The notes under the pieces were generated by a model. The model did not search any database and was not told where the DNA came from. It saw only the letters and a program-made list of their open reading frames with translations. Made by a program: the position numbers and the translations under genes. Of a stretch of DNA of 64,000 nucleotides, positions 37,001-64,000 are shown piece by piece. The stretch's first letter is position 1, and every line of letters begins with the position of its first letter. The stretch is from the NCBI RefSeq assembly GCF_965638725.1, contig NC_134975.1, positions 2,244,179-2,308,178 on the forward strand, in the 5' to 3' direction. The stretch is from Aptenodytes patagonicus. Its lineage: Eukaryota; Chordata; Aves; Sphenisciformes; Spheniscidae.

Positions 37001-38278
37001 TGGAGGCTCAAGCTGCGCCTAGGCACAGGGTGTCAGTAGACACCTTCTTTCAGTGTAACATCCTGAGCATGTTTACAGTGTTGTGGTGACTGATAATACA
37101 TGCCCCAGGACATTAACTGACATTAATGGAAGGCCCCATCTTATGATCATCTTCTTCTTCTCATGACTTCAGCTCAGCCCCTGAACCTCAAAAATCAAAA
37201 TGTCTCTGGGCACAGCCTTACGCCATCTGTCTTGCAGCATTTTTGATCAAAAAGGCATGGGCAATATCTAATTGACATATGCAACTTAGCGTTGAGTCAA
37301 TGAAAAATCAGCAGTGGACATGTCCTGATACACATTGACATTGCACCTCTTTTAGCTACTTTCCACAATTTGCATGCGCTGTGGTGGTAGAAAGAAAATC
37401 ATCCCAGCTGAAATCTGTATGGTTCAAAGGCCTGAAACTCAGCCTTGGTCTTAACGGAACCAAATACACAAGCTCCTTACAGATACTGGCCGGAGTTGGA
37501 CCACATAGCTGCTGCAGGAAAGGAACCGCAATAATTAAGCATTTAAAAAATATTGTATTTGTAGACAACTGAAATCCTGGATGAGATTTTTCACTCCTAC
37601 TTAAACAGGGATAATTTTATATGGCAGGAGGTGCCAGAACACTCATCTCCAGAAACTGGAGATATCATTATAGCTTAGCTGACAAGCAGAACGGGTTTTG
37701 ATATACCCTTCCAAACCATTCCTTCACTAAATTAGCCCAGCACTTAAGGCTATGTACTAGCATTGTGTAAACAGTACTTAAACCAACTTAGTGGAAATGC
37801 TGATCAAGCCCCTTGTACGAGTTGGGGGTTAGCAATCTCTTTTCTAAGCTGGTCTCCCAGGCTCCTGTTATAGTCAACCGAAACAGATGGTTTGTCTGAT
37901 CTCCAGCGGGTGGTTCATCCCATACTAAGGTAGATGTACAAATTAGGTCTTTTGAATTGCCTCCAGAAGTGCCTGTTTCTCTCCGTCGTCTCTACCTCCT
38001 CCCTTTTCAACCTTTCACTCTACAAAACAGATCAGTAAAAAGCCCCCAGGCCTGACCACAGTGTTCATATTAATTCTTTATTTCTTCTGGTTAGAGATGA
38101 GAAGCTCTAGGCACCCTGTCTACATAATTTAACAGTGAAACTAAAGCCCAACAATAGTTGGTAGTGCGCAGCATTACCTTTCACAGCTTCCACTTTTTAT
38201 TGTAAGAGGGAAGGCTTTGTCTTGATTGAAAAGTCTTACCTCATCTCTTAGATAAAAAATGGGGTTGTGATGATGCAG
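34042..38278. other. Intergenic spacer, no gene recognised
   Basis: No supportable gene or RNA. Weak old-repeat similarity near 37890-37970. ORFs of 90-126 codons near 35.0-35.8 kb show no recognisable domain. Confidence 0.5.
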
Positions 38279-38284
38279 TTTATT
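38279..38284 (-). terminator. Candidate poly(A) signal of gene D
   Basis: AATAAACTGCAT on minus, identical over 12 bases to the gene B signal and its flank, about 1.66 kb after the gene D stop. A second AATAAA lies at 38077-38082. The long 3' UTR makes this tentative. Confidence 0.4.
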
Positions 38285-39943: not shown

Positions 39944-42900
39944 TCAAAAAGACCACCCTCCCTCAGAGCTGCATTCTCCAGTCCCATCTCCAGGGCTGTA
40001 CCTCCCACCTCCACGGCCCCGTCCTACATAACCCTGATCCCCTCCAGAGCTAGCCCCACCTCCAGAGCCATACCCTCCACTGCCAGAACTGCAGATACCA
40101 CCAGAGCTCGAACCCCCACCTCCAGAGACAGGGCTTCCACCACCTCCAGAGATCGACCCTCTCCTACCAGAGCTGCTGCCACCGCCAGAGCTCAGCCCTC
40201 CGCTCAGAGGACTGCATCTGCCACTGCCAGAGCTGGATCCCCATCCTCCAGAGCTGTGGCCACCACCAGAGATGGAGCCTCCACTGCCTGAACTTCCTCC
40301 TCCTCCATACCCTGAGCCACCTCCTCCTCCTCCACAGATGGACCCACCATGGCCAGAGCTTGATCCTCCATAACCTGAGCTTCCTCCTCCTCCACCTCCC
40401 GAGATGGACCCTCTCCTGCCACAGCTGCTGCCACCGCCAGAGATGGAGCCTCCACTGCCTGAGCTTCCTCCTCCTCCTCCATACCCTGAGCCTCCTCCAC
40501 CACAGATGGAACCGCCACCGCCAGAGCTCGATCCTCCATGACCTGAGCTTCCTCCTCCTCCATACCCTGAGCCTCCTCCGCCACAGATGGAACCGCCGCC
40601 GCCAGAGCTCGATCCTCCATGACCTGAGCTTCCTCCTCCACCATACCCTGAGCCACCTCCTCCACAGATGGACCCACCATGGCCAGAGCTTGATCCTCCA
40701 TGACCTGAGCTTCCTCCTCCTCCATACCCTGAGCCTCCTCCACCACAGATGGACCCACCATGGCCAGAGCTCGATCCTCCATGACCTGAGCTTCCTCCTC
40801 CTCCACCTCCTGAGATGGACCCTCTCCTGCCACAGCTGCTGCCACCGCCAGAGATGGAGCCTCCATGACCTGAGCTTCCTCCTCCTCCTCCATACCCTGA
40901 GCCTCCTCCACCACAGATGGACCCACCATGGCCAGAGCTTGATCCTCCATGACCTGAGCTTCCTCCTCCTCCACCTCCCGAGATGGACCCTCTCCTGCCA
41001 CAGCTGCTGCCACCGCCAGAGATGGAGCCTCCACTGCCTGAGCTTCCTCCTCCTCCATACCCTGAGCCTCCTCCGCCGCAGATGGAACCACCACCGCCAG
41101 AGCTCGATCCTCCATGACCTGAGCTTCCTCCTCCTCCACCTCCCGAGATGGACCCTCTCCTGCCACAGCTGCTGCCACCGCCAGAGATGGAGCCTCCACT
41201 GCCTGAGCTTCCTCCTCCTCCTCCATACCCTGAGCCTCCTCCTCCTCCTCCACAGATGGACCCATAATGGCCAGAGCTTGATCCTCCATGGCCTGAGCTT
41301 CCTCCTCCTCCACCTCCCGAGATGGACCCTCTCCTGCCACAGCTGCTGCCACCGCCAGAGATGGAGCCTCCATGACCTGAGCTTCCTCCTCCTCCTCCAT
41401 ACCCTGAGCCTCCTCCACCACAGATGGACCCAACATGGCCAGAGCTCGATCCTCCATGACCTGAGCTTCCTCCTCCTCCACCTCCCGAGATGGACCCTCT
41501 CCTGCCACAGCTGCTGCCACCACCAGAGATGGAGCCTCCACTGCCTGAGCTTCCTCCTCCTCCATACCCTGAGCCTCCTCCACCACAGATGGACCCACCA
41601 TGGCCAGAGCTCGATCCTCCATGACCTGAGCTTCCTCCTCCTCCACCTCCCGAGATGGACCCTCTCCTGCCACAGCTGCTGCCACCGCCAGAGATGGAGC
41701 CTCCACTGCCTGAGCTTCCTCCTCCTCCTCCATACCCTGAGCCTCCTCCTCCTCCTCCACAGATGGACCCATAATGGCCAGAGCTTGATCCTCCATGACC
41801 TGAGCTTCCTCCTCCTCCACCTCCCGAGATGGACCCTCTCCTGCCACAGCTGCTGCCACCGCCAGAGATGGAGCCTCCATGACCTGAGCTTCCTCCTCCT
41901 CCTCCATACCCTGAGCCTCCTCCACCACAGATGGACCCACCATGGCCAGAGCTCGATCCTCCATGACCTGAGCTTCCTCCTCCTCCACCTCCCGAGATGG
42001 ACCCTCTCCTGCCACAGCTGCTGCCACCGCCAGAGATGGAGCCTCCACTGCCTGAGCTTCCTCCTCCTCCATACCCTGAGCCTCCTCCGCCACAGATGGA
42101 ACCGCCGCCGCCAGAGCTCGATCCTCCATGACCTGAGCTTCCTCCTCCACCATACCCTGAGCCACCTCCTCCACAGATGGACCCACCATGGCCAGAGCTT
42201 GATCCTCCATGACCTGAGCTTCCTCCTCCTCCACCTCCTGAGATGGACCCTCTCCTGCCACAGCTGCTGCCACCGCCAGAGATGGAGCCTCCACTGCCTG
42301 AGCTTCCTCCTCCTCCATACCCTGAGCCTCCTCCACCACAGATGGACCCACCATGGCCAGAGCTTGATCCCCCATGACCTGAGCTTCCTCCTCCTCCACC
42401 TCCCGAGATGGACCCTCTCCTGCCACAGCTGCTGCCACCGCCAGAGATGGAGCCTCCACTGCCTGAACTTCCTCCTCTTCCTCCATACCCTGAGCCACCT
42501 CCTCCACAGATGGAACCGCCGCCGCCAGAGCTCGATCCTCCATGACCTGAGGTTCCTCCACCTCCATGCCCTGAGCCTCCTCCACCACAGATGGACCCAC
42601 CATGTCCAGAGCTCGATCCTCCATGACCTGAGCTTCCTCCTCCTCCATACCCTGAGCCTCCTCCACCACAGATGGACCCACCATGGCCAGAGCTCGATCC
42701 TCCATGACCTGAGCTTCCTCCTCCTCCACCTCCCGAGATGGACCCTCTCCTGCCACAGCTGCTGCCACCGCCAGAGATGGAGCCTCCACTGCCTGAACTT
42801 CCTCCTCCTCCATAACCTGAGCCTCCTCCGCCGCAGATGGAACCGCCGCCGCCAGAGCTCATTTCTCCATGACCTGAGCTTCCTCCTCCTCCATACCCTG

Positions 42901-45900
42901 AGCCACCTCCTCCTCCTCCACAGATGGACCCACCATGGCCAGAGCTTGATCCTCCATGACCTGAGCTTCCTCCTCCTCCACCTCCCGAGATGGACCCTCT
43001 CCTGCCACAGCTGCTGCCACCGCCAGAGATGGAGCCTCCACTGCCTGAGCTTCCTCCTCCTCCATGCCCTGAGCCACCTCCACCACAGATGGCACCGCCG
43101 CCGCCAGAGCTCGATCCTCCATGACCTGAGCTTCCTCCTCCTCCACCTCCCGAGATGGACCCTCTCCTGCCACAGCTGCTGCCACTGCCAGAGATGGAGC
43201 CTCCACTGCCTGAGCTTCCTCCTCCTCCTCCATACCCTGAGCCACCTCCTCCACAGATGGACCTACCATGGCCAGAGCTCGATCCTCCATGACCTGAGCT
43301 TCCTCCTCCTCCACCTCCCGAGATGGACCCTCTCCTGCCACAGCTGCTGCCACCGCCAGAGATGGAGCCTCCACTGCCTGAGCTTCCTCCTCCTCCATAC
43401 CCTGAGCCTCCTCCGCCGCAGATAGAACCACCATGGCCAGAGCTCGATCCTCCATGACCTGAGCTTCCTCCTCCTCCACCTCCCGAGATGGACCCTCTCC
43501 TGCCACAGCTGCTGCCACCGCCAGAGATGGAGCCTCCACTGCCTGAACTTCCTCCTCCTCCATAACCTGAGCCTCCTCCGCCGCAGATGGACCCACCATG
43601 GCCAGAGCTCGATCCTCCATGGCCTGAGCTTCCTCCTCCTCCACCTCCCGAGATGGACCCTCTCCTGCCACAGCTGCTGCCACCGCCAGAGATGGAGCCT
43701 CCATGACCTGAGCTTCCTCCTCCTCCTCCATACCCTGAGCCTCCTCCACCACAGATGGACCCACCATGGCCAGAGCTCGATCCTCCATGACCTGAGCTTC
43801 CTCCTCCTCCACCTCCCGAGATGGACCCTCTCCTGCCACAGCTGCTGCCACCGCCAGAGATGGAGCCTCCACTGCCTGAGCTTCCTCCTCCTCCATACCC
43901 TGAGCCTCCTCCACCACAGATGGACCCACCATGGCCAGAGCTCGATCCTCCATGACCTGAGCTTCCTCCTCCTCCACCTCCCGAGATGGACCCTCTCCTG
44001 CCACAGCTGCTGCCACCGCCAGAGATGGAGCCTCCACTGCCTGAACTTCCTCCTCCTCCATAACCTGAGCCTCCTCCGCCGCAGATGGAACCGCCACCGC
44101 CAGAGCTCATTTCTCCATGACCTGAGCTTCCTCCTCCTCCATACCCTGAGCCACCTCCTCCTCCTCCACAGATGGACCCACCATGGCCAGAGCTTGATCC
44201 TCCATGACCTGAGCTTCCTCCTCCTCCACCTCCCGAGATGGACCCTCTCCTGCCACAGCTGCTGCCACCGCCAGAGATGGAGCCTCCACTGCCTGAGCTT
44301 CCTCCTCCTCCATACCCTGAGCCTCCTCCGCCGCAGATGGACCCACCATGGCCAGAGCTTGATCCTCCATGACCTGAGCTTCCTCCTCCTCCATACCCTG
44401 AGCCACCTCCTCCACAGATGGACCCACCATGGCCAGAGCTTGATCCTCCGTGACCTGAGCTTCCCCCTCCTCCTCCACCTCCCGAGATGGACCCTCTCCT
44501 GCCACAGCTGCTGCCACCGCCAGAGATGGAGCCTCCACTGCCTGAACTTCCTCCTCCTCCATAACCTGAGCCTCCTCCGCCGCAGATGGACCCACCATGG
44601 CCAGAGCTCGATCCTCCATGACCTGAGCTTCCTCCTCCTCCACCTCCCGAGATGGACCCTCTCCTGCCACAGCTGCTGCCACCGCCAGAGATGGAGCCTC
44701 CACTGCCTGAGCTTCCTCCTCCTCCTCCATACCCTGAGCCTCCTCCACCACAGATGGACCCACCATGGCCAGAGCTCGATCCTCCATGACCTGAGCTTCC
44801 TCCTCCTCCACCTCCCGAGATGGACCCTCTCCTGCCACAGCTGCTGCCACCGCCAGAGATGGAGCCTCCATGACCTGAGCTTCCTCCTCCTCCTCCATAC
44901 CCTGAGCCTCCTCCACCACAGATGGACCCACCATGGCCAGAGCTTGATCCTCCATGACCTGAGCTTCCTCCTCCTCCACCTCCCGAGATGGACCCTCTCC
45001 TGCCACAGCTGCTGCCACCACCAGAGATGGAGCCTCCACTGCCTGAGCTTCCTCCTCCTCCATACCCTGAGCCTCCTCCACCACAGATGGACCCACCATG
45101 GCCAGAGCTCGATCCTCCATGACCTGAGCTTCCTCCTCCTCCACCTCCCGAGATGGACCCTCTCCTGCCACAGCTGCTGCCACCGCCAGAGATGGAGCCT
45201 CCACTGCCTGAGCTTCCTCCTCCTCCATACCCTGAGCCTCCTCCACCACAGATGGACCCACCATGGCCAGAGCTCGATCCTCCATGACCTGAGCTTCCTC
45301 CTCCTCCACCTCCCGAGATGGACCCTCTCCTGCCACAGCTGCTGCCACCGCCAGAGATGGAGCCTCCACTGCCTGAACTTCCTCCTCCTCCATAACCTGA
45401 GCCTCCTCCGCCGCAGATGGAACCGCCGCCGCCAGAGCTCATTTCTCCATGACCTGAGCTTCCTCCTCCTCCATACCCTGAGCCACCTCCTCCTCCTCCA
45501 CAGATGGACCCACCATGGCCAGAGCTTGATCCTCCATGACCTGAGCTTCCTCTTCCTCCACCTCCCGAGATGGACCCTCTCCTGCCACAGCTGCTGCCAC
45601 CGCCAGAGATGGAGCCTCCACTGCCTGAGCTTCCTCCTCCTCCATACCCTGAGCCTCCTCCGCCGCAGATGGACCCACCATGGCCAGAGCTTGATCCTCC
45701 ATGACCTGAGCTTCCTCCTCCTCCATACCCTGAGCCACCTCCTCCACAGATGGGCCCACCGTGGCCAGAGCTCGATCCTCCGTGACCTGAGCTTCCCCCT
45801 CCTCCTCCACCTCCCGAGATGGACCCTCTCCTGCCACAGCTGCTGCCACCGCCAGAGATGGAGCCTCCACTGCCTGAACTTCCTCCTCCTCCATAACCTG

Positions 45901-48900
45901 AGCCTCCTCCGCCGCAGATGGACCCACCATGGCCAGAGCTCGATCCTCCATGACCTGAGCTTCCTCCTCCTCCACCTCCCGAGATGGACCCTCTCCTGCC
46001 ACAGCTGCTGCCACCGCCAGAGATGGAGCCTCCACTGCCTGAACTTCCTCCTCCTCCATAACCTGAGCCTCCTCCGCCGCAGATGGAACCGCCGCCGCCA
46101 GAGCTCATTTCTCCATGACCTGAGCTTCCTCCTCCTCCATACCCTGAGCCACCTCCTCCTCCTCCACAGATGGACCCACCATGGCCAGAGCTTGATCCTC
46201 CATGACCTGAGCTTCCTCCTCCTCCATACCCTGAGCCACCTCCTCCACAGATGGGCCCACCGTGGCCAGAGCTCGATCCTCCGTGACCTGAGCTTCCCCC
46301 TCCTCCTCCACCTCCCGAGATGGACCCTCTCCTGCCACAGCTGCTGCCACCGCCAGAGATGGAGCCTCCACTGCCTGAACTTCCTCCTCCTCCATAACCT
46401 GAGCCTCCTCCGCCGCAGATGGACCCACCATGGCCAGAGCTCGATCCTCCATGACCTGAGCTTCCTCCTCCTCCATACCCTGAGCCTCCTCCACCACAGA
46501 TGGACCCACCATGGCCAGAGCTCGATCCTCCATGACCTGAGCTTCCTCCTCCTCCACCTCCAGAGATGGACCCTCTCCTGCCACAGCTGCTGCCACCGCC
46601 AGAGATGGAGCCTCCACTGCCTGAACTTCCTCCTCCTCCATAACCTGAGCCTCCTCCGCCGCAGATGGAACCGCCGCCGCCAGAGCTCATTCCTCCATGA
46701 CCTGAGCTTCCTCCTCCTCCACCTCCAGAGATGGACCCTCTCCTGCCACAGCTGCTGCCACCGCCAGAGATGGAGCCTCCACTGCCTGAGATTCCTCCTC
46801 CTCCATACCCTGAGCCACCTCCACCACAGATGGACCCACCATGGCCAGAGCTCGATCCTCCATGACCTGAGCTTCCTCCTCCTCCACCTCCCGAGATGGA
46901 CCCTCTCCTGCCACAGCTGCTGCCACCGCCAGAGATGGAGCCTCCACTGCCTGAGCTTCCTCCTCCTCCTCCATACCCTGAGCCTCCTCCGCCACAGATG
47001 GAACCGCCACCGCCAGAGCTCGATCCTCCATGACCTGAGCTTCCTCCTCCTCCATACCCTGAGCCACCTCCTCCACAGATGGACCCACCGTGGCCAGAGC
47101 TCGATCCTCCGTGACCTGAGCTTCCCCCTCCTCCTCCACCTCCCGAGATGGACCCTCTCCTGCCACAGCTGCTGCCACCGCCAGAGATGGAGCCTCCACT
47201 GCCTGAGCTTCCTCCTCCTCCTCCATACCCTGAGCCACCTCCTCCACAGATGGACCCACCATGGCCAGAGCTCGATCCTCCATGACCTGAGCTTCCTCCT
47301 CCTCCACCTCCCGAGATGGACCCTCTCCTGCCACAGCTGCTGCCACCGCCAGAGATGGAGCCTCCACTGCCTGAACTTCCTCCTCCTCCATACCCTGAGC
47401 CTCCTCCACCACAGATGGACCCACCATGGCCAGAGCTCGATCCTCCATGACCTGAGCTTCCTCCTCCTCCATACCCTGAGCCACCTCCTCCACAGATGGA
47501 ACCGCCGCCGCCAGAGCTCGATCCTCCATGACCTGAGCTTCCTCCTCCTCCTCCATACCCTGAGCCTCCTCCACCACAGATGGACCCACCATGGCCAGAG
47601 CTTGATTCTCCATGACCTGAGCTTCCCCCTCCTCCACCTCCCGAGATGGACCCTCTCCTGCCACAGCTGCTGCCACCGCCAGAGATGGAGCCTCCACTGC
47701 CTGTACTTCCTCCTCCTCCTCCATACCCTGAGCCTCCTCCACCACAGATGGAACCACCACCACCAGAGCTTGATCCTCCATGACATGATCTTCCTCCTCC
47801 TCCACCTCTCTTGCCACAGCTGCTGCCACCGCCAGAGATGGAGCCTCCACTGCCTGAGCTTCCTCCTCCTCCATACCCTGAGCCTCCTCCACCACAGATG
47901 GACCCACCATGGCCAGAGCTCGATCCTCCATGACCTGAGCTTCCTCCTCCTCCACCTCCCGAGATGGACCCTCTCCTGCCACAGCTGCTGCCACCGCCAG
48001 AGATGGAGCCTCCACTGCCTGAACTTCCTCCTCCTCCATAACCTGAGCCTCCTCCGCCGCAGATGGAACCGCCGCCGCCAGAGCTCATTTCTCCATGACC
48101 TGAGCTTCCTCCTCCTCCATACCCTGAGCCACCTCCTCCTCCTCCACAGATGGACCCACCATGGCCAGAGCTTGATCCTCCATGACCTGAGCTTCCTCTT
48201 CCTCCACCTCCCGAGATGGACCCTCTCCTGCCACAGCTGCTGCCACCGCCAGAGATGGAGCCTCCACTGCCTGAGCTTCCTCCTCCTCCATACCCTGAGC
48301 CTCCTCCGCCGCAGATGGACCCACCATGGCCAGAGCTTGATCCTCCATGACCTGAGCTTCCTCCTCCTCCATACCCTGAGCCACCTCCTCCACAGATGGG
48401 CCCACCGTGGCCAGAGCTCGATCCTCCGTGACCTGAGCTTCCCCCTCCTCCTCCACCTCCCGAGATGGACCCTCTCCTGCCACAGCTGCTGCCACCGCCA
48501 GAGATGGAGCCTCCACTGCCTGAACTTCCTCCTCCTCCATAACCTGAGCCTCCTCCGCCGCAGATGGACCCACCATGGCCAGAGCTCGATCCTCCATGAC
48601 CTGAGCTTCCTCCTCCTCCACCTCCCGAGATGGACCCTCTCCTGCCACAGCTGCTGCCACCGCCAGAGATGGAGCCTCCACTGCCTGAACTTCCTCCTCC
48701 TCCATAACCTGAGCCTCCTCCGCCGCAGATGGAACCGCCGCCGCCAGAGCTCATTTCTCCATGACCTGAGCTTCCTCCTCCTCCATACCCTGAGCCACCT
48801 CCTCCTCCTCCACAGATGGACCCACCATGGCCAGAGCTTGATCCTCCATGACCTGAGCTTCCTCCTCCTCCATACCCTGAGCCACCTCCTCCACAGATGG

Positions 48901-51900
48901 GCCCACCGTGGCCAGAGCTCGATCCTCCGTGACCTGAGCTTCCCCCTCCTCCTCCACCTCCCGAGATGGACCCTCTCCTGCCACAGCTGCTGCCACCGCC
49001 AGAGATGGAGCCTCCACTGCCTGAACTTCCTCCTCCTCCATAACCTGAGCCTCCTCCGCCGCAGATGGACCCACCATGGCCAGAGCTCGATCCTCCATGA
49101 CCTGAGCTTCCTCCTCCTCCATACCCTGAGCCTCCTCCACCACAGATGGACCCACCATGGCCAGAGCTCGATCCTCCATGACCTGAGCTTCCTCCTCCTC
49201 CACCTCCAGAGATGGACCCTCTCCTGCCACAGCTGCTGCCACCGCCAGAGATGGAGCCTCCACTGCCTGAACTTCCTCCTCCTCCATAACCTGAGCCTCC
49301 TCCGCCGCAGATGGAACCGCCGCCGCCAGAGCTCATTCCTCCATGACCTGAGCTTCCTCCTCCTCCACCTCCAGAGATGGACCCTCTCCTGCCACAGCTG
49401 CTGCCACCGCCAGAGATGGAGCCTCCACTGCCTGAGATTCCTCCTCCTCCATACCCTGAGCCACCTCCACCACAGATGGACCCACCATGGCCAGAGCTCG
49501 ATCCTCCATGACCTGAGCTTCCTCCTCCTCCACCTCCCGAGATGGACCCTCTCCTGCCACAGCTGCTGCCACCGCCAGAGATGGAGCCTCCACTGCCTGA
49601 GCTTCCTCCTCCTCCTCCATACCCTGAGCCTCCTCCGCCACAGATGGAACCGCCACCGCCAGAGCTCGATCCTCCATGACCTGAGCTTCCTCCTCCTCCA
49701 TACCCTGAGCCACCTCCTCCACAGATGGACCCACCGTGGCCAGAGCTCGATCCTCCGTGACCTGAGCTTCCCCCTCCTCCTCCACCTCCCGAGATGGACC
49801 CTCTCCTGCCACAGCTGCTGCCACCGCCAGAGATGGAGCCTCCACTGCCTGAGCTTCCTCCTCCTCCTCCATACCCTGAGCCACCTCCTCCACAGATGGA
49901 CCCACCATGGCCAGAGCTCGATCCTCCATGACCTGAGCTTCCTCCTCCTCCACCTCCCGAGATGGACCCTCTCCTGCCACAGCTGCTGCCACCGCCAGAG
50001 ATGGAGCCTCCACTGCCTGAACTTCCTCCTCCTCCATACCCTGAGCCTCCTCCACCACAGATGGACCCACCATGGCCAGAGCTCGATCCTCCATGACCTG
50101 AGCTTCCTCCTCCTCCATACCCTGAGCCACCTCCTCCACAGATGGAACCGCCGCCGCCAGAGCTCGATCCTCCATGACCTGAGCTTCCTCCTCCTCCTCC
50201 ATACCCTGAGCCTCCTCCACCACAGATGGACCCACCATGGCCAGAGCTTGATTCTCCATGACCTGAGCTTCCCCCTCCTCCACCTCCCGAGATGGACCCT
50301 CTCCTGCCACAGCTGCTGCCACCGCCAGAGATGGAGCCTCCACTGCCTGTACTTCCTCCTCCTCCTCCATACCCTGAGCCTCCTCCGCCGCAGATGGAAC
50401 CACCACCGCCCGAGCTTGATCCTCCATGACATGAGCTTCCTCCTCCTCCACCTCTCCTGCCACAGCTGCTGCCACCGCCAGAGATGGAGCCTCCACTGCC
50501 TGAGCTTCCTCCTCCTCCATACCCTGAGCCTCCTCCGCCGCAGATGGAACCACCACCGCCCGAGCTTGATCCTCCATGACATGAGCTTCCTCCTCCTCCA
50601 CCTCTCTTGCCACAGCTGCTGCCACCGCCAGAGATGGAGCCTCCACTGCCTGAGCTTCCTCCTCCTCCGTACCCTGAGCCTCCTCCACCACAGATGGAAC
50701 CACCACCACCAGAGCTTGATCCTCCATGACATGGGCTTCCTCCTCCTCCACCTCTCTTGCCACAGCTGCTGCCACCGCCAGAGATGGAGCCTCCACTGCC
50801 TGAGCTTCCTCCTCCATACCCTGAGCCACCTCCTCCACAACTGGACCCACCACCACCCGAGCTTGATCCTCCATGACATGAGCTTCCTCCTCCTCCACCT
50901 CTCTTGCCACAGCTGCTGCCACCGCCAGAGATGGAGCCTCCACTGCCTGAGCTTCCTCCTCCTCCATATCCTGAGCCACCTCCTCCTCCTCCACATATGG
51001 ACCCACCGCCACCACCAGAGCTCGATCCTCCATGACCTGAGCTTCCTCCTCCTCCACCTCCCGAGATGGACCCTCTCCTGCCACAGCTGCTGCCACCGCC
51101 AGAGCTCAGCCCTCCGCTCTGGGGACTGCATCTGCCACTGCCAGTGCTGGATCCCCATCCTGCAGAGCTGTGGCCACCGCCAGAGAGGGAGCCTCCTTTG
51201 CCCGAGCTTCCTCCTCCTCCATACCCTGAGCCTCCTCCTCCTCCTCCACAAATGGAGCTGCCACTGCCAGAGCTGGATCCCCATCCTCCAGAACTTCCGC
51301 CTTTTCCTCCTCCGGAGATTGACCCTTTCCTTCTGTTCTTGCTGGCACTGCCAGAGCTCAGCCACCCCTTCCCGCTTTTCAAGCCTCCAGACCCTACTGC
51401 AAAGACTCCAGTTGCACTCGCATTGTGGTCAATGACACCTGCAAGAAATGGAAATTATGTGCAGCTTATTATTTTTACCCAAAACATTATAAGCACAGCT
51501 GACATAAGTACTTATGTATTGCCAGCATTGTACCTGTTCTAGTGGTCATAGCCATATCTTTGAAAAGGGGCAACAAGGATCTTCTTTAGTAGATGCACCT
51601 ATGAAATCTTGTCATGTTTTTCTGGCTTTATTAGCTTATCTTCAACATGACTTACAGATTACTCTGTACATGAACACTCAATGCAGCCCTTTCTTTAAGA
51701 AGGCCAAGAGTTCAGGTTTCCCTCTCCTTTAGCTGGCCTCCTATTTCCACAAATTTAGGACTATTTTTTTTTTTCCTTCAGTTCTGACATGCACCGCACA
51801 GACCTATAGAATAAGTGAGGTGTTTCCCACTTCCTACAAATTTGGTTGAAATTAGCCAATAAGTTCCAAAGTCAGTAGCTCAGTGTGGACATATTAATGC

Positions 51901-54900
51901 ATATACACATGTATTCACACACACACTCACAAGAGACTACCATTTGCTTCATTTCCCTAGGAAACGAAGATAGGAGCTAAGGTAGGTTGTTCTGATGGTA
52001 GCTGTTAAGTACCACAGACAACAAAATGGTAACAGTGCTCTTAAAAAAGCAGAGCAAAGCCTTGAGATACTTACAGATTGTGGCTGGTGAGCCTTCCTGT
52101 ATCCTGTGAAGGAAAAGTGACCTTGAGTTAATGCATCCGATAAAAGTAAAAGTCAGGCTAGGCTCTATCAGTAAGCCAATGAAAGAGATCACTCCTTCCA
52201 GGCAGCAATTCATCCTGGAGATCTAAGTGATAGATCGGAGAATGGGACACACTGCTTTGTACAGGTGCTTCTATCCAGGATGAATAGTTTGTACCTACCT
52301 GGTCTCCTCCTCCTCAAGGAGTGATCTATACATGGCAATTTCAATATCCAGGGCAAATTTCACGTTCAGGAGCTCCTGATAATCATGAAGAAGGCAAGCG
52401 AGATCATCTTTGGCCTGCTGCAGGGCGTTTTCCAACTCCTGAAGCTTTTGCTGGCCATCTTTGACGGCAGAGCTCCCACGCTGCTCAGCATCTTTAATGG
52501 TTTCTTGGAGGCTGGCATTCTGCAGAGGGCACAAACAGAATGTGTCCATTTCCCTTCTATGGGACTGGGATTTTCAAACCCTTCTGGCAGCCCTTGGAAA
52601 TTAAAAGACCCGCCTCAATGACAGAACTCGGAAGATACATTAGACTGGGTAAATTAACACAAATTGAATCCCAATGAAGACAGCCAAAATCTAAGTCTGC
52701 TTCATTTTGAAGAGAAAACATCATCTCTAGGTTTGCTTCCAAAGGGCAGGCTACGTTATACTGCACTGAGTCCCCATGTAAAAGTGACTTAAATAGTTTA
52801 GTCATGTTGGAAAGTACCAGCTTTACCTTTTTCCTTGCAATTTCAATTTCTGGTTGTAGTCTTTGGATCTGCCTGGTAAGTTCCTGGATTTCCTGATAAC
52901 TGTTCCTCAATTGCTCACGTTGATTTACCCACATGTTCTGAAGGTCCTGGTACTGAAGTGCAGAGAAGAGAACACACATTTTTGGTTTCTTTTCCATTGA
53001 GCAGACAGACTTGACTCCCTATCTTGTTGATGTCTACTCACCCTGCCCCGATACATGGCATCTACTTCAGCTTTGCTTCTCTGAGCAACTGTCTCATACT
53101 CCTGCCTGACTTCTTCAATGATGCTATCCATGTTCAGTTCTCTATGGTTGTCCATGGACAGAATGACATTGGTGTTGCCAACTACTGTTTGCAGCTGGGA
53201 CAGCTCCTGCAAGGAAAACAAGATTTTGGATTTTAACAGTCCATGTGAGTAGTCCAGGTCATGTTATGAGGAAAGAAATGGGACCCTCTGGCCGGTTACC
53301 CACTGGAATTTCCCTACCTGCATCCCCCACGTCCTGTTGTTCCACCACAAGTTTTAATTCTGAAGTGTCTCTTCCAGCCTTCGTGACACACCAGACCCCC
53401 TTTTCACTCACAGATTAAAGAGAACTTTATAAGATCAAAGGCCAAGTGTCATCCACTCTCCACACCAAAAAGTCCTGTTCAGGCAAAATTTCTAGGAGCC
53501 TCCAAAAGATACATGTCCTTCAAGAACTGAGGGTAAGTTTTTAATCTGAGAAGCATACTCACAGCTTCATGTAAGCATCTGAGGAACTCCAGCTCCTGCC
53601 TCAGTATTTCCACCCGAACATCAAACTCCATTTTTCCCATGTAGGCACTGTCCAGTTCCTGTAAAAAAAGCCATAGGCATATTTGTATTTCTTTGATCCA
53701 AATTCTCCACTGAAGTGCAATTCTTGCAAGACTTGGTACATTTCTTTAAAGCCTTCATTCCTTGAGTCAAATAATGGCCCACGAATCTCAGATTTCATTT
53801 GAAAAGCAATTGGAACAAAGGGAAAGATTTTGACTCTTAGAAGAAAAGAATGGCTTGGAAATAAGCAAAATAGCTGTGGCAATAAATGTGTTCCTGGAGA
53901 AAACACAAAATGTAGAAACATAGATTTCATTAATTCTTCTAATAAAAAGTTGTCTAAATTTTCTATTGTCCTATCTAAGCCACCTATAGACATTATTTAA
54001 CCCCTAATAACAATGTCTCACCTAATAACCTAGGTTGTGATTGAGTGAATAGAGAAAGACCAGCACTTTTTAGATATTCATCTTACAAAGGACCGATTCA
54101 GTCTCTAGAGGAAATTACTTCTCTCCAGTCTTGCAGTAAAAAGCTCAGGTTTTCAATGACTTCAGTTAGAGGAGAGTTAGACGATGTTAAGCAAAGACCT
54201 TGCTTTTGAAAACCTCAGCAACCATCCAGTTATTGCTTTATTTCTGAGGCTTTGATTTAGCTCAGTGTCTTGGATTACTTCACCTTTTTAAGCTCCACAA
54301 ATTCCTCTTCTTTAGACGCACGCTTGTTGATCTCGTCCTCGAACCTGTTGCAGCAGAGAAAAGAAACAGGTAGCTCATTGCCTGTCTTACTTTTTCAGTC
54401 AAGTGGGTCAGAAACCAAAGGGGATCATCCAAAAAGGGAATGTGTCAAGTTTTCATTTAACTGCAATTTCTGGCAACTGCAAAGGCAATTGCAAACCCTC
54501 TGCAAAACTGTATGCTAAATTAGCCAACAAAATGTGGTAGATACAGATCAGTTGTGACATCCCAGTAATTCTGAACTAAACTTCCCATTTTTCAGAGCTG
54601 TGGACATATATTATCTTTTGGGTGCAGCTAAGCCAGAAGACATGACGCCTCTTCTCAACTTGACCCCACTGCTCAGCTCTGTCCCTCCCCTCCCCGCTGT
54701 CCAGGTTGACCACAACTCCACAACTGCCAGCAGGAGTAAGGAGTCCTGGGTTACTCATTGCCTGGAGGAAGAAGGGCATGAAGGAGGACAGGAGGAGAGA
54801 AGAGTGGGATAGATCTACAGGGCCTTTGATTTTCCTCTTACTGTTCTGGGTTCTACCCTCACCAATCTGCTTTAGTCTTCCAGCGTCAAAGCCAAGTCCC

Positions 54901-57212
54901 ATAACGAACCTACTGCAGAGTAGTGCTATAATGGCTACAAAACTCTTGGAGCTAAGCTATGCCATCCCAGGGCATGATTAACATTGCCTTGGAAAATTCC
55001 AGTATGCTTTCTCCCAGACTTGTGATTATTCACCTCTTTTTATAATCTTCAACGAGCTGAAGCATATTATATGCTTCCGGATCCAGCTGCTCCTTCTGGT
55101 TCTGGAGCGTTTCTAGCTGCCTCTGCAGGTTGCTGATGTAAGATTGGAAGAAAGAGGCGATATTTCTGCTCTCTTCTGGTCGGGTACTTTGCTGCTGCAG
55201 AAGTTCCCATTTGGCCATCAGAGCCTGGTTCTGCCGCTCGAGACATTGAACCTGAAAGGCAAAGCAGAAGAGCATCTCAGCCACTGGAAAGCCCCGGGAG
55301 AAACACCATCAGCGTTAGTCCCTATAGCAAAACAAATCCTAATTAATATTTCCAACGCAGTAACACCTAGAGGTTTCGTCAGGTGGGACCAACTGTAGTA
55401 ACACTGGGACCAACGCACGAGACAGCTTAGCCTAAAAGGGGGGACACCTCTTTTTTCCCAATCTGTTGCGTAAGGGTATGATTTTATTCCTGCTTCTCAA
55501 AGCTGATTCTGAAATCTTTGCTGGCTTTTCATCTCTTAAATGTACAATATTTAGGGGGATGATAGGGGTGGAGGGAGACTTCAGCTGTTTCTGAAGTACC
55601 TTAGACACCCAAATACATGAGAAGAGTTAGCCCCCTCTCAGAAGACCACACGTGACCACTCTCTTCCTAGGTACACCTTGCCTTAGAGAAGAAGGTCAGA
55701 AAGACCTATAACATGCAGAGCTGGTATTTTTGGAAACCAGAGGGATAGAATCTCTTCAGCTGGGACACTAAACAGGTTATAACCTGGAAGCTGACATCCA
55801 GAAGGTTTAAAAAAAAAAAAAAAAAGTCAAAAGCACTCCTATTTTTCAGGACTAAGCATGCTTAAAACTTCTGGGTGTAACCAACACCTTTTCTGTAGCG
55901 TAATACAAGAAACTCTTAAGTCTTCACATGTAACAAATAATACAAGCTTCCACCCTATGCAGAGACACATGTCACCACCCAAACAAAGGCATGTGTCAGG
56001 TCCACCTCAGTAGAAGTGTTTTTGTGGCTGTTTTGTTCCCCTGTCTGTGAGTAGAAACAAAAGAGAAGGCAAGACTGCAGACAGAGGTGAAAGTATTGTA
56101 GGGTAAACTAAGAAAGAGATAAAGAAGAAAGATGTGGGGGACACTGGCCACCTGAAAGAGGCTAGGACCTCCAAGAAAAGAAGTAATTTGTTTTGTAATT
56201 CAGAGAAATGCAGCATTTTGCTTTGCTTGAGAAAGAAAAACAGAACACATCAAGGATGTCCAAGTCCATCACCCATTTTTCCTGCTAGCATCAACAATTC
56301 CCAGGCACCAGAATATTGTTAGCCATGCAGAAACCCTTTTCCTCAAAAGAAAAGTGTGTTAATGTGTCGGTGACATCCCAGTAGTTTGTTATTGTCCTGC
56401 CACAAAAGACTTATCCCAAGGCTAAATGTAAGTGATTCATGCAGCGGCGTTTATAGCAAGCTATTAAGAACTTCACCCCAGCACAAGGGAATCTAGCCAA
56501 CGCTGTGATTTTGGGGGGGAGTAGATGCAATGTAAAGGTCTCCCTGTGACTCACAGAGGCAGAGCAGCACCCCTTACATTTCCCCCTGCCCAGATAACAA
56601 GTCAAAAAGAGAACAGGGACTCACCTTATCAATGAATGATGCAAATTTGTTGTTGAGAGCCTTAATCTGCTCTTTCTCATCTGACCGCACTCTCTGGAAC
56701 TCGGGATCAACTTGTACTTGTATTGGCCTCAGCAAGTTGGTATTGACATGGACCTCCTCGATGCCTCTGCTAACACCAGCCTGCCCAAAACGCTGTCCAG
56801 CCCCTTGTTCACCAAAGGCACTTCTACCAAGGCCTCCTCCAAGCACCTCCCTGCCTGAACTTCTTCCACACGTGCTACCGAGCCCTGCTTCACCACCTTG
56901 AAAAGCTCCCACAAAATAGCCTCTTCTACCAAAGCCCCTATCAAGATGTCTCCTACCACCAAATCCCAGGCACCTCCCATATCCTCTTCCTTCTCCTCCG
57001 TAGCATCCACCAGCAGAAACATTCCTAAACCCACCAAGGTTGTGGAGACTCCTGCTGCCATAACCATACTCATAACCACTGTATCTTTCTTCTCCTCTAT
57101 TGTCTTCACAATGGCTTACAGTAGATGAACTTCTCCCACCACCCAGCGTGCCACAGTGAGCAGAAGAAGAACTGAAATTCCCATCCCCAAATCTGGAGAA
57201 ACGTTGGCTCAT
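39944..57212 (-). CDS. Giant type II keratin with a 3.8-kilo-residue Gly/Ser/Cys repeat tail (gene D)
   Basis: Nine exons on minus: 56625-57212, 55034-55251, 54284-54344, 53563-53658, 53042-53206, 52827-52952, 52299-52519, 52075-52103 and 39944-51438. They total 12,999 bp, about 4,332 residues, with all phases closing. The head (1 to about 177) starts [17 protein letters not shown]. The rod runs from [19 protein letters not shown] to [15 protein letters not shown] near residue 492, with ELSQLQ and NVILSMDN typical of epidermal K1/K78-type keratins. The last exon has a good acceptor (TTTCTTGCAG) and enters in frame as [19 protein letters not shown]. It then stays open for 11.5 kb of Gly/Ser repeats with Cys, Arg-Arg, His and Tyr, and ends GGWSF. 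Mouse K78 is a remembered precedent for a much enlarged Gly-rich tail, and exon 7 opens NASL as K78 does, so a K78-like identity is possible. The tail has almost no Gln or Lys, which argues for disulfide rather than transglutaminase linkage. Misassembly of the repeat length is the main caveat. Confidence 0.85.
40189..40264 (-). repeat. Border module, C-terminal end of the array
   Basis: Encodes the unit with [20 protein letters not shown]. It differs at only 4 of 76 bases from 51103-51178 at the other end of the array, and this unit does not occur inside the array. Confidence 0.85.
45170..47729 (-). repeat. Internal duplication, C-terminal-side copy
   Basis: About 2.56 kb that matches 47816-50375 at a constant offset of 2,646 bp (882 codons) at all points I compared. 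It includes rare variants such as GRG, GGPICGG and GEMSSG in the same order. It is in frame and about 12 SSCGRRG units long. Ends are estimated from where the two copies begin to differ. Confidence 0.85.
47816..50375 (-). repeat. Internal duplication, N-terminal-side copy
   Basis: Partner of 45170-47729. Identity breaks at the right end near 50376 (GCCGCAG against ACCACAG). At the left end it breaks near 47816, where a short-variant unit with TGACATGATC differs from the aligned position in the other copy. Confidence 0.85.
51103..51178 (-). repeat. Border module, N-terminal end of the array
   Basis: Encodes the unit with [20 protein letters not shown] and is the partner of 40189-40264. A third, shorter relative ([17 protein letters not shown]) lies just upstream in the protein near 51.25-51.30 kb. 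Confidence 0.8.
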
Positions 57213-57330: not shown

Positions 57331-57574
57331 CCTTTATACATTCTGGAGGAGTTCATCTCCATTCCATGGGGTAATTAGCAGGTCTGTTAATGTTGTTATC
57401 AGGTTTGGTTCATCAGGCAGCAATTAATGGCTGCCTGAAGAGAGGTCAGAGTAAACACCACGCACCAGTGGAGGAATTGTGAAATTCCCCAAATCCTGCT
57501 TGACTCATGAGCTTTGCTCAGACGAGATTTCTTTATCTCATTAGCCTGCCCTCCATCATTAATTACAGTTCACA
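57331..57574 (-). promoter_or_regulatory. Promoter of giant keratin gene D
   Basis: TATAAAGG on minus at 57331-57338, about 119 bp before the ATG. The shared block is at 57401-57430 (plus reading AGGTTTGGTTCATCAGGCAG then CAATTAATGG), with GAACCAAA on minus, one mismatch from the CK-8-mer. The second shared block is at about 57558-57574 (ATTAATTACAGTTCACA). It is the most diverged of the four promoters, as the coding region is. Confidence 0.65.
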
Positions 57575-60918: not shown

Positions 60919-61627
60919 TCATAGAATCATAGAATCATTGAGGTTGGAAAAGACCTCTAAGATCATCGAGTCCAACCATCGACCCAACACCACCACCCAC
61001 TAAACCATGTCCCTAAGTGCCTCATCTACACGTCTTTTAAATACCTCCAGGGATGGGGACTCCACCACTTCCCTGGGCAGCCTCTTCCAATGTTTCACCA
61101 CTCTTTCAGTAAAGACATTTTTCCTCACATCCAATCTAAACCTCCCCTGACACAACTTGAGGCCGTTTCCCCTCGTCCTGTCACTAGTTACTTGGGAGAA
61201 GAGACCGACCCCCCCCTCGCTACAACCTCCTTTCAGGGAGTTGTAGAGAGCGATGAGGTCTCCCCTCAGCCTCCTCTTCTCCAGGCTAAACAACCCCAGT
61301 TCCCTCAGCCGCTCCTCATCAGACTTGTTCTCCAGACCCCTCACCAGCCTCGTTGCCCTTCTCTGGACACGCTCCAGCACCTCGACGTCCTTCTTGGAGT
61401 GAGGGGCCCAAAACTGAACACAGTATTCGAGGTGCGGCCTCACCAGTGCCGAGTACAGGGGCACCATCACTTCCCTGCTCCTGCTGGCCACACCATTTCT
61501 GATACAAGCCAGGATGCCCTTGGCCTTCTTGGCCGCCTGGGCACACTGCCGGCTCATGTTCAGCCGGCTGTCGACCAACACCCCCAGGTCCTTTTCCTCC
61601 AGGCAGCTTTCCAGCCACTCTTCCCCA
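60919..61627 (-). mobile_element. CR1 LINE, 3' part with open ORF2 end
   Basis: A 5'-truncated CR1 in minus orientation. The 3' terminus (60919-60937) is the ATTCTATGATTCTATGAT repeat preceded by GGTCTTTTCCAACCT. From about 61627 to 61000 an open frame encodes the C-terminal end of the CR1 reverse-transcriptase protein. It has [24 protein letters not shown], here given as consecutive parts [10 protein letters not shown] and [10 protein letters not shown]. It continues with [45 protein letters not shown] and [19 protein letters not shown], ending RDMV. The unbroken frame indicates a comparatively young copy. It lies 3.6 kb upstream of gene D's promoter. Confidence 0.95.
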
Positions 61628-64000
61628 AGATGTCTCAGAAGAAAGATCTAGCTACTTTTCATCACTGCCAGACATAAACTAGTGATTGTTACAAGCCACA
61701 CTGGCAGAGCAGAGGGTAGATAAATAAGCATAGTAATGTACTTATTCCTATTAAATAACTACTGCAGACCAGTACAGTGGACACACAGCAGTGTGGTAGA
61801 GTAGTACGTTAATAAATACAGTACTTAGATTTAATAGCTGTCCAGAAAAAGTAGAGAGACATGCACACAGGATTGAAATAGATCTTGATCACTAGTTGCC
61901 TAAATACCTGCATAAGTAGGGCCCTAAGTCACTTCGAAAATGGGGCTGAGATCACATAGACACAGTAATAAAAATGCCTTTCATTCCACAGACTTTCATT
62001 TTCTCCCATCTTCCATCACAGGGACTAACAATAACCTTTTTCTGTGGCCAGCGAAGGCAGTAAGAGATTCTGAGGAGAGAACAAAAGGAGGAGAAGTGTC
62101 AAAAACCTTGTCATGGCAGAAAAGAAGTGAAATGCTGGTATTCTACCTAAGGTTTATGCTGCTTTAATTTTGAGGTTCCCCAGCTTGGAGAGCACCTTGC
62201 CTGCAAGAACGTATTGTACTAATTATACAGGCACTTCAAGGTGGGAGCAGGAATATGATCCCACACACGTGATCTATGGCACGCAGAGATCAGATGGAGT
62301 TTCCCTCACCCAGACCTACACCTGGGTGAACTGAAAGTTGCTGTGAGACCACAGAAAAAGCGCCCTATATCAGGGCATGTTCAGAATTACATGAGTTGTC
62401 AACCCTTCATAGTAAAACAGTGAAGCTTCCTGACGAGGGAACTATAATTAGAGGAGGTCTGGGAAGCCCCTAAGATGGGAGGGCTTTGTCCCGCACAGAC
62501 TGATATAAGTGGGTACTGAGTTCAACCAGTTGGGGATGGTTTTTGGGGGAAAATGTTCTTTTGTCTTTGGTAAACAGAAGCATTTTGTGGAAAGGCTGTG
62601 GTCGAATTGCACAGAACCAGGGTGGAGGCTAAGACCGAAGGTGAGGGGGCAGAGCTGGCCACTCCAAACAACGTGAGCTCAATGGATAGATAAGGAGGAA
62701 CTTGGCACAGTCCCTGTCACTGGCTTCTCCATCAGGAGCGGCTCCGTAATACGGACATATGGAAGCGACCAGTGGACCATGGCATTTCAGATGGTAAGAA
62801 GCAACAGTGCATCTCTGCTTGCAAGCAAGTGATTTCTTTTTGAGTGGAGGAAGGACAACAAGTAGCACAAGGTGGAGACCAAGAGGTCGGGGCAGCACAG
62901 ACCAACCTGTAAGAGGTTGGAACCAAGTGCTCAGTTCATAAGTACAATGACAGCAAGGCAAGCTAAGGAGACACGGTGTGGGAAATGGTGGAAAGCCTAC
63001 GAGGAGCGAGGAGAGCTGCCCCTGGAGCTACAAACCTCTCTCCTTGACTGTGCAGGGAGCCTGCGTGACGGCTTTAGATTAGACCTTTGACTTTGAGAAA
63101 GCCAGACGCAGGCAGGATGAATTCTACCTGGTGTGGGGTAGGTCCCCTACTTCTAGGGACAGTCTTGCCTCCTTGAGACACTTTGAATGGGGAGAGTGGT
63201 GGGCTGTGGTAAGGCTTGATTTTAGTCTCAGGTCTGGACCAGCAACTATTCTTCTAATACAAAACAAGGTATTACTTTACCTTACAATCCCGTTAACAAG
63301 TGACTAATGGCTATTTTAATAAATGGCTAATTATTCTGGGTTAACAGGAAGGTAAACAAGTTAATAACTTGCTTGTAACCACCTAGAATATTAAATTATC
63401 TACTCAGAAAATACTAATCATAATTATGATATCTGTTAATCTCTTATTTCCCCTACAAGAATGTGAAAGTATCAATTTAATATAATGTGTGAAAATAGTG
63501 ACGTAATTTTTCTATTGTTGTTATTAACAACTGCAGTGAGTGGATGAAGTAGAAGCTTATTACTTTTTTTACTTTATTGGCTAACCTAATGCAAAATATT
63601 ATGCTCTTTGATCCCCGAGATCTCTTAAAGGCTGAGCAAGTCCTGGTTCCTCCACACACAGCAAACTTGCAGCTGATGCCCTCGAGCTGGGGCGTGTGGT
63701 GCTGGAGCAAGGCAGAGATTAAATCTCCAAAGGGTTTCAGGAGGAGGAGAGATACAGCCTGCAGAGAGAAAGAAAAAAAAAAAAAAAGAAAAATGAGGAT
63801 GAAGAGGAAACTAAGTTGAACTCTAGGTTAAATGCACCAGCTGTCATGAGAAAACATGACTTTTTTCTATGTGCAGCTGCTTCCCGGCAGAAAAATAGTC
63901 AATGTACATGGCATCCGTGATATAAATAGAGGAAAAACATTAGGGCAGCTTCTGGATCAAGATCCACAGTGAGAATAAGTAAAGGGAACTTCGGTAATTG
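61628..64000. other. Right-hand flank, no gene recognised
   Basis: AT-rich non-coding DNA. There is no keratin exon, RNA gene or clear mobile element, only short A-rich tracts (for example near 63770-63786). The next cluster member, if any, lies beyond the window. Confidence 0.5.

Follow-up and report, generated by a model that had tools for sequence, protein, structure and literature searches.

An open KRT78LT-like keratin gene with a giant repetitive tail exon in the penguin Aptenodytes patagonicus

Introduction

The long-tailed keratins of archosaurs are the closest described counterparts of the gene presented here, a type II keratin gene with a giant last exon that lies on the minus strand of a 64,000-nucleotide stretch of the 1.35-Gb Aptenodytes patagonicus genome (contig NC_134975.1, positions 2,244,179 to 2,308,178; hereafter the window, in whose own coordinates positions are given). 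Passages of Ehrlich et al. (PMC7086170) describe KRT78LT (K78-like keratin with a long tail) as a type II keratin of archosaurs that flanks the genes of the HBS (hard basic sauropsid-specific) keratins, and give the American alligator form a tail of more than 1,700 residues with more than 50 cysteines. In the relevant passages of a 2025 proteome study (PMC12821399), chicken KRT78LT was strongly enriched in beak versus egg tooth, and the tissue distribution of KRT78LT was stated as not yet determined. That the long repetitive tails of sauropsid keratins act as filament crosslinkers is a hypothesis of Parry and Winter (2021), as cited in a passage of a 2025 review (PMC11816140).

In both place and character the penguin gene fits the described KRT78LT: three cysteine-rich keratin genes adjoin it, and its tail runs to 3,831 residues with 142 of the 150 cysteines of the protein. 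We regard it as a probable avian KRT78LT orthologue. A preliminary description of the locus had regarded it as a giant keratin without precedent. As to length this was not contradicted, since among the literature matches listed, and in passages of PMC4202321, PMC11704414 and PMC8072682 (subscription papers, supplements and sequence databases lying outside the scope), no keratin of comparable length was found. As to kind it did not, since a search with the names KRT78LT and K78LT had PMC7086170 and PMC12821399 among its listed matches, and passages of the former already describe such a gene.

Gene structure

Exons were placed by their splice sites and by the exon layout known for type II keratins and then joined. 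The gene so obtained runs from 57212 to 39944 on the minus strand in nine exons, with GT-AG borders at eight of eight introns and consistent phases. Its coding sequence of 12,999 nt has its sole stop at the end and encodes a predicted protein of 4,332 residues, among them 150 cysteines, with a calculated mass of about 360 kDa.

57333..57338, minus strand: TATAAA, a probable promoter element from a motif scan, about 125 bp upstream of the start codon
56625..57212, minus strand: exon 1, head and start of the rod, 196 codons (Pfam Keratin_2_head, 1.9e-21)
55034..55251, minus strand: exon 2, 218 nt, from the gene model
54284..54344, minus strand: exon 3, 61 nt, from the gene model
53563..53658, minus strand: exon 4, 96 nt, from the gene model
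53042..53206, minus strand: exon 5, 165 nt, from the gene model
52827..52952, minus strand: exon 6, 126 nt, from the gene model
52299..52519, minus strand: exon 7, 221 nt, end of the rod (Pfam Filament, 4.3e-93, residues 178-492 of the spliced protein)
52075..52103, minus strand: exon 8, 29 nt, equal in length to the nearest exon-8 candidate in three HBS-type neighbours
39944..51438, minus strand: exon 9, the giant tail exon, 11,495 nt, made up of 2 nt of a codon split with exon 8, 3,830 complete codons and the TGA stop
38077..38284, minus strand: three AATAAA motifs, candidate polyadenylation signals, with first bases at 38284, 38201 and 38082, the first about 1.7 kb past the stop

This is a real type II keratin gene with a giant in-frame last exon. 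The type II head is complete (PF16208, 1.9e-21, profile positions 1-161 of 161), as is the intermediate-filament domain (PF00038, 4.3e-93, profile positions 1-313 of 313), and a PDB search with the rod gave chains of keratin 5 and keratin 1 as the best keratin matches, vimentin being the top match overall, with a near full-length chain present there. The lengths of exons 3 to 7 (61, 96, 165, 126 and 221 nt) are the usual type II keratin values, and the nine-exon plan is that of type II keratins, with an exon 8 of 29 nt, where most of the cluster's remaining genes have a nearest candidate of 35 nt.

The type II identity and the dimensions of the last exon had been put forward in the preliminary description, and they were borne out to the nucleotide. 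Exon 9 spans exactly 39944..51438 and is joined to exon 8 in the correct phase, with the acceptor TTTCTTGCAG directly before 51438 and entry in phase 1, and its frame stays open to the TGA at 39946-39944.

The tail and its repeat array

The tail of 3,831 residues, made up of the 3,830 full codons of exon 9 and the codon shared with exon 8, contains 2,037 glycines (53%), 1,051 serines (27%) and 142 cysteines. The cysteines occur once per 27 residues, close to the interval of about 28 first noted, with 29, 26 and 27 as the commonest spacings, and most lie in one of two contexts, SICGG (73 of 142) or SSCGR (49 of 142). Lysine and glutamine are scarce, with only 10 and 2 in the whole tail, and 6 of the 10 lysines and both glutamines are outside the regular array. 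Cutting the tail at CGGGG yields 78 units, which represent 29 different protein sequences and most often measure 55, 56 or 27 residues. Diverged modules bearing tryptophan and proline are found near both ends of the array, which can therefore be recognised.

40337..50839, minus strand: stretch with genome-search matches to the 55-residue array unit (at least 51 matches)

Protein-query matches to this unit (58 candidates scored, at least 51 matches listed) all fell in exon 9, with none elsewhere in the genome among those listed, and membership of the repeat in a wider family was accordingly rejected. No Pfam family was matched by either of the two pieces of the tail that were searched, one from the start and one from the end of exon 9. 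When three units were submitted to structure prediction, the model had very low confidence (mean predicted local distance difference test score, pLDDT, of 35), which agrees with a disordered chain but does not prove one; the tail is probably disordered. Fully stretched, at 0.36 nm per residue, it would measure about 1.4 micrometres.

Directly past the TGA (39946-39880, minus strand), the same frame reads an arginine codon, TAG, then GYRSAYGGGSGSSGDASHK, and TAA.

Is the tail translated?

The openness of a frame is weak evidence in an array such as this, because its repeat consists of triplets and exon 9 has two further long open frames, one sense frame of 2,721 codons and one antisense frame of 2,669 codons. 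A long frame by chance was considered and set aside; other frames being long as well, the case rests on the codon pattern and not on openness. This pattern was assessed by the ratio of nonsynonymous to synonymous differences between units (pN/pS), with 200 nulls in which the same changes were moved to other positions.

The 55-residue units (25 units, 14 of them distinct) differ mainly at third codon positions, with 5, 4 and 12 of the 55 columns variable at codon positions 1, 2 and 3, and minor-allele counts of 5, 4 and 37. In the proposed frame their pN/pS is 0.129, a value that none of the 200 nulls reached; the two remaining sense frames give 2.57 and 3.86. The 27-residue units (9 distinct) agree with this, their pN/pS being 0.164, with 5 of 200 nulls as low and 0.258 in the best antisense frame. 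The result is weaker for the 56-residue units (14 distinct), compared ungapped even though their extra glycine sits at differing places: their ratio is 0.468, and 4 of 200 nulls were no higher. When 36 distinct units of 49-58 residues were aligned with the protein as guide, a procedure that itself leans towards the proposed frame, codon positions 1, 2 and 3 had 14, 8 and 24 variable columns and minor counts of 32, 25 and 120. Exact 120-mers in exon 9 recur solely at offsets divisible by three. Because of these offsets and the third-position excess, the tail frame looks translated, with constraint at the codon level within the array. The codon-position pattern also argues against exon 9 being an intron with a short alternative end, which was rejected.

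The same results bear on the reading in which the array is a repeat expansion at the DNA level, open since it is built of triplets, in a gene that is becoming a pseudogene or whose long form is rarely made. Such a reading would fit the two other long open frames, the premature stops that passages of PMC7086170 report for the chicken and Chinese alligator copies, and the run rich in glycine and serine beyond two stops after the present end. It sits poorly with the third-position excess and the pN/pS of 0.129, with the intactness of exons 1-8, and with the detection of the chicken product in the beak proteome (passages of PMC12821399), and we regard it as improbable.

Internal duplication and the length of the tail

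One repeat in the array is free of mismatches over a far longer run than any other.

45166..50386, minus strand: internal tandem duplication with a step of 2,646 bp, 2,575 bp of it mismatch-free (50386-47812 versus 47740-45166)

The longest mismatch-free run at any other offset is 378 bp. Judged from the letters, the 2,646-bp step is either a very recent duplication or a duplication made in assembly, and with one copy removed the tail would have 2,949 residues and 109 cysteines. The latter case, in which gene and long tail exist but assembly has inflated the length over a true tail of about 2,950 residues, would explain why 2,575 bp are free of mismatches when the next-longest run is 378 bp. 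Several observations speak for the assembled length. The window contains no N, and a DNA search of the penguin's own genome with 49900-52600 listed three paralogous exon-7 matches only and no stray copy, a limited check, since simple repeats are passed over in such a search and the window itself was not among the matches listed. Moreover, repeat arrays of this type undergo recent in-frame duplication. An inflated length appears unlikely, but it calls for caution.

If the step is genuine, the penguin protein would exceed every keratin described so far, and the gene would be an intact KRT78LT with an array that continues to expand, one entire in-frame block at a time. Tail length might then vary between individuals or lineages, as the repeat number of filaggrin does, and so tune the crosslinking of horn. 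We offer this only tentatively, as somewhat less than an even prospect.

Proposed function

Taken together, the observations make it likely that the gene is a KRT78LT orthologue whose product forms filaments and supplies the disulfide crosslinker for them itself, with beak or comparable hard horn as the most likely site. As in the rest of the family, the coiled-coil rod would take a type I keratin as its partner and be built into 10-nm filaments, from which the tail, with its roughly 78 glycine- and serine-rich units and a cysteine about every 27 residues, would project. During cornification the tail could be locked by disulfides to neighbouring tails, to cysteine-rich keratins and to other corneous proteins, so that a filament subunit would bring its own crosslinker with it. 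Given a stretched length of about 1.4 micrometres, the tails could span the gaps between filaments. Expression of the gene, its type I pairing and its disulfide crosslinking are what we infer; the beak, perhaps with other hard horn, is suggested by analogy, because the chicken gene product is reported as enriched there.

The preliminary description had envisaged a disulfide-linked, loricrin-like extension in a hard cornified tissue. Its disulfide role is plausible, and the likeness to loricrin holds for composition only in part. Loricrin is a small, cysteine-bearing protein of the cornified envelope, rich in glycine and serine, that is without an intermediate-filament rod and is a substrate of transglutaminase. 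The resemblance of the tail to it in glycine, serine and cysteine could be taken to mean that the tail is a transglutaminase-linked envelope component borne on a keratin, but with 142 cysteines against 10 lysines and 2 glutamines, disulfides are to be favoured over transglutaminase bonds, all the more as most of those lysines and both glutamines fall outside the regular array. We consider a transglutaminase-linked tail very improbable.

Neighbouring genes and kinship

The keratin cluster around the gene was surveyed over 280 kb, exon-8 candidates in the neighbours being assigned by motif rather than by transcript. Three genes adjoin the long-tailed gene; their seventh exons are at C27:2241892, 2263415 and 2274025, of which the latter two lie within the window.

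About 17.7-23.2 kb and about 28.9-33.4 kb, minus strand: two cysteine-rich HBS-type keratin genes, adjoining the long-tailed gene
Exons 1 and 2 near 2.9 and 1.5 kb, minus strand: a third cysteine-rich HBS-type keratin gene, partly within the window

In all three the nearest exon-8 candidate has 29 nt, versus 35 nt in most other genes of the cluster. Their last-exon open reading frames are rich in cysteine (9, 10 and 14), and their compared rod exons hold 16, 19 and 9 cysteines versus 3 in the long-tailed gene. Their identification as HBS genes is presumptive, as is the naming of the outer genes of the cluster. Ten other genes of the cluster have last-exon open reading frames rich in glycine and serine of 73 to 163 residues.

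A tree was built from 17 of the 19 rods (320 columns, exon 3 excluded, and without mammalian K78, chicken or alligator sequences; the weak exon-1 match of g2185 makes its assignment doubtful). The three HBS-type genes clustered with a support of 100, the long-tailed gene was their sister at 96 and thus lay outside the HBS clade rather than within it, and the four together joined three further genes at 100.

Two further features of the region were recorded. An orphan keratin exon 7 at G000:C27:2314580-2314368, with CR1-like sequence directly after it and no exon 8 recognised, is probably a gene fragment. At 61000-61647 on the minus strand there is an open reading frame resembling the end of a CR1 reverse-transcriptase frame, which we take to be CR1-like.

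Assessment

Several points weigh against a translated KRT78LT orthologue with a tail of the assembled length. Its orthology rests on place, on its kinship to the neighbours and on the character of its tail, judged against the published description of KRT78LT. According to passages of PMC7086170, premature stops interrupt the copies of chicken and Chinese alligator. Plain rod identity to the HBS-type genes (0.543, 0.489 and 0.482) is no higher than that to other rods (up to 0.549, among g2200, g2328 and g2337); because plain identity ranks other rods nearest, the kinship depends on the tree model, and long branches need care. One antisense frame of the 55-residue units also has a low pN/pS (0.190), and in the ungapped comparison of the 56-residue units an antisense frame lies slightly below the sense frame (0.435 versus 0.468). 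The perfect repeat of 2,575 bp may be an assembly fault. The GYRSAYGGGSGSSGDASHK stretch past the stop could possibly mean a shortened C-terminus, or be due to chance. Lastly, prediction from a single sequence is weak evidence of disorder in the tail.

An open copy of such size nevertheless makes KRT78LT worth revisiting in long-read bird genomes, and its tail supplies peptides to seek in beak proteomes. With it one could also ask whether a keratin can supply a crosslinking matrix of its own through its tail, a task generally credited to separate corneous proteins.

Comparison with known systems

With loricrin the tail shares its cysteines and its richness in glycine and serine, whereas the long-tailed keratin has a full rod and little lysine or glutamine, and loricrin is rodless and a transglutaminase substrate. 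The wall-lizard keratin of Parry and Winter (2021), as presented in a passage of the review PMC11816140, similarly has a long repetitive tail and is a proposed crosslinker, a likeness of description and not of compared sequences. The HBS keratins (KRT78LC), presumably represented by the three neighbours of the long-tailed gene, share with it a nearest exon-8 candidate of 29 nt and are its sister in the rod tree; they differ in having more cysteines in the compared rod exons, 16, 19 and 9 versus 3, and last-exon open reading frames of only 137, 168 and 150 residues.

It is KRT78LT, as described in passages of PMC7086170, that the penguin gene resembles most fully: both are type II keratins that lie beside HBS or HBS-type genes and carry a very long, cysteine-rich tail, and K78-like kinship may be a further trait in common. 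The differences are of size and of condition, the alligator tail having more than 1,700 residues and more than 50 cysteines versus 3,831 tail residues and 150 cysteines in the protein here, and the chicken and Chinese alligator copies having premature stops whereas the penguin copy is open. The kind of gene is thus not new; what is new is an open copy with over twice the tail length quoted for KRT78LT.

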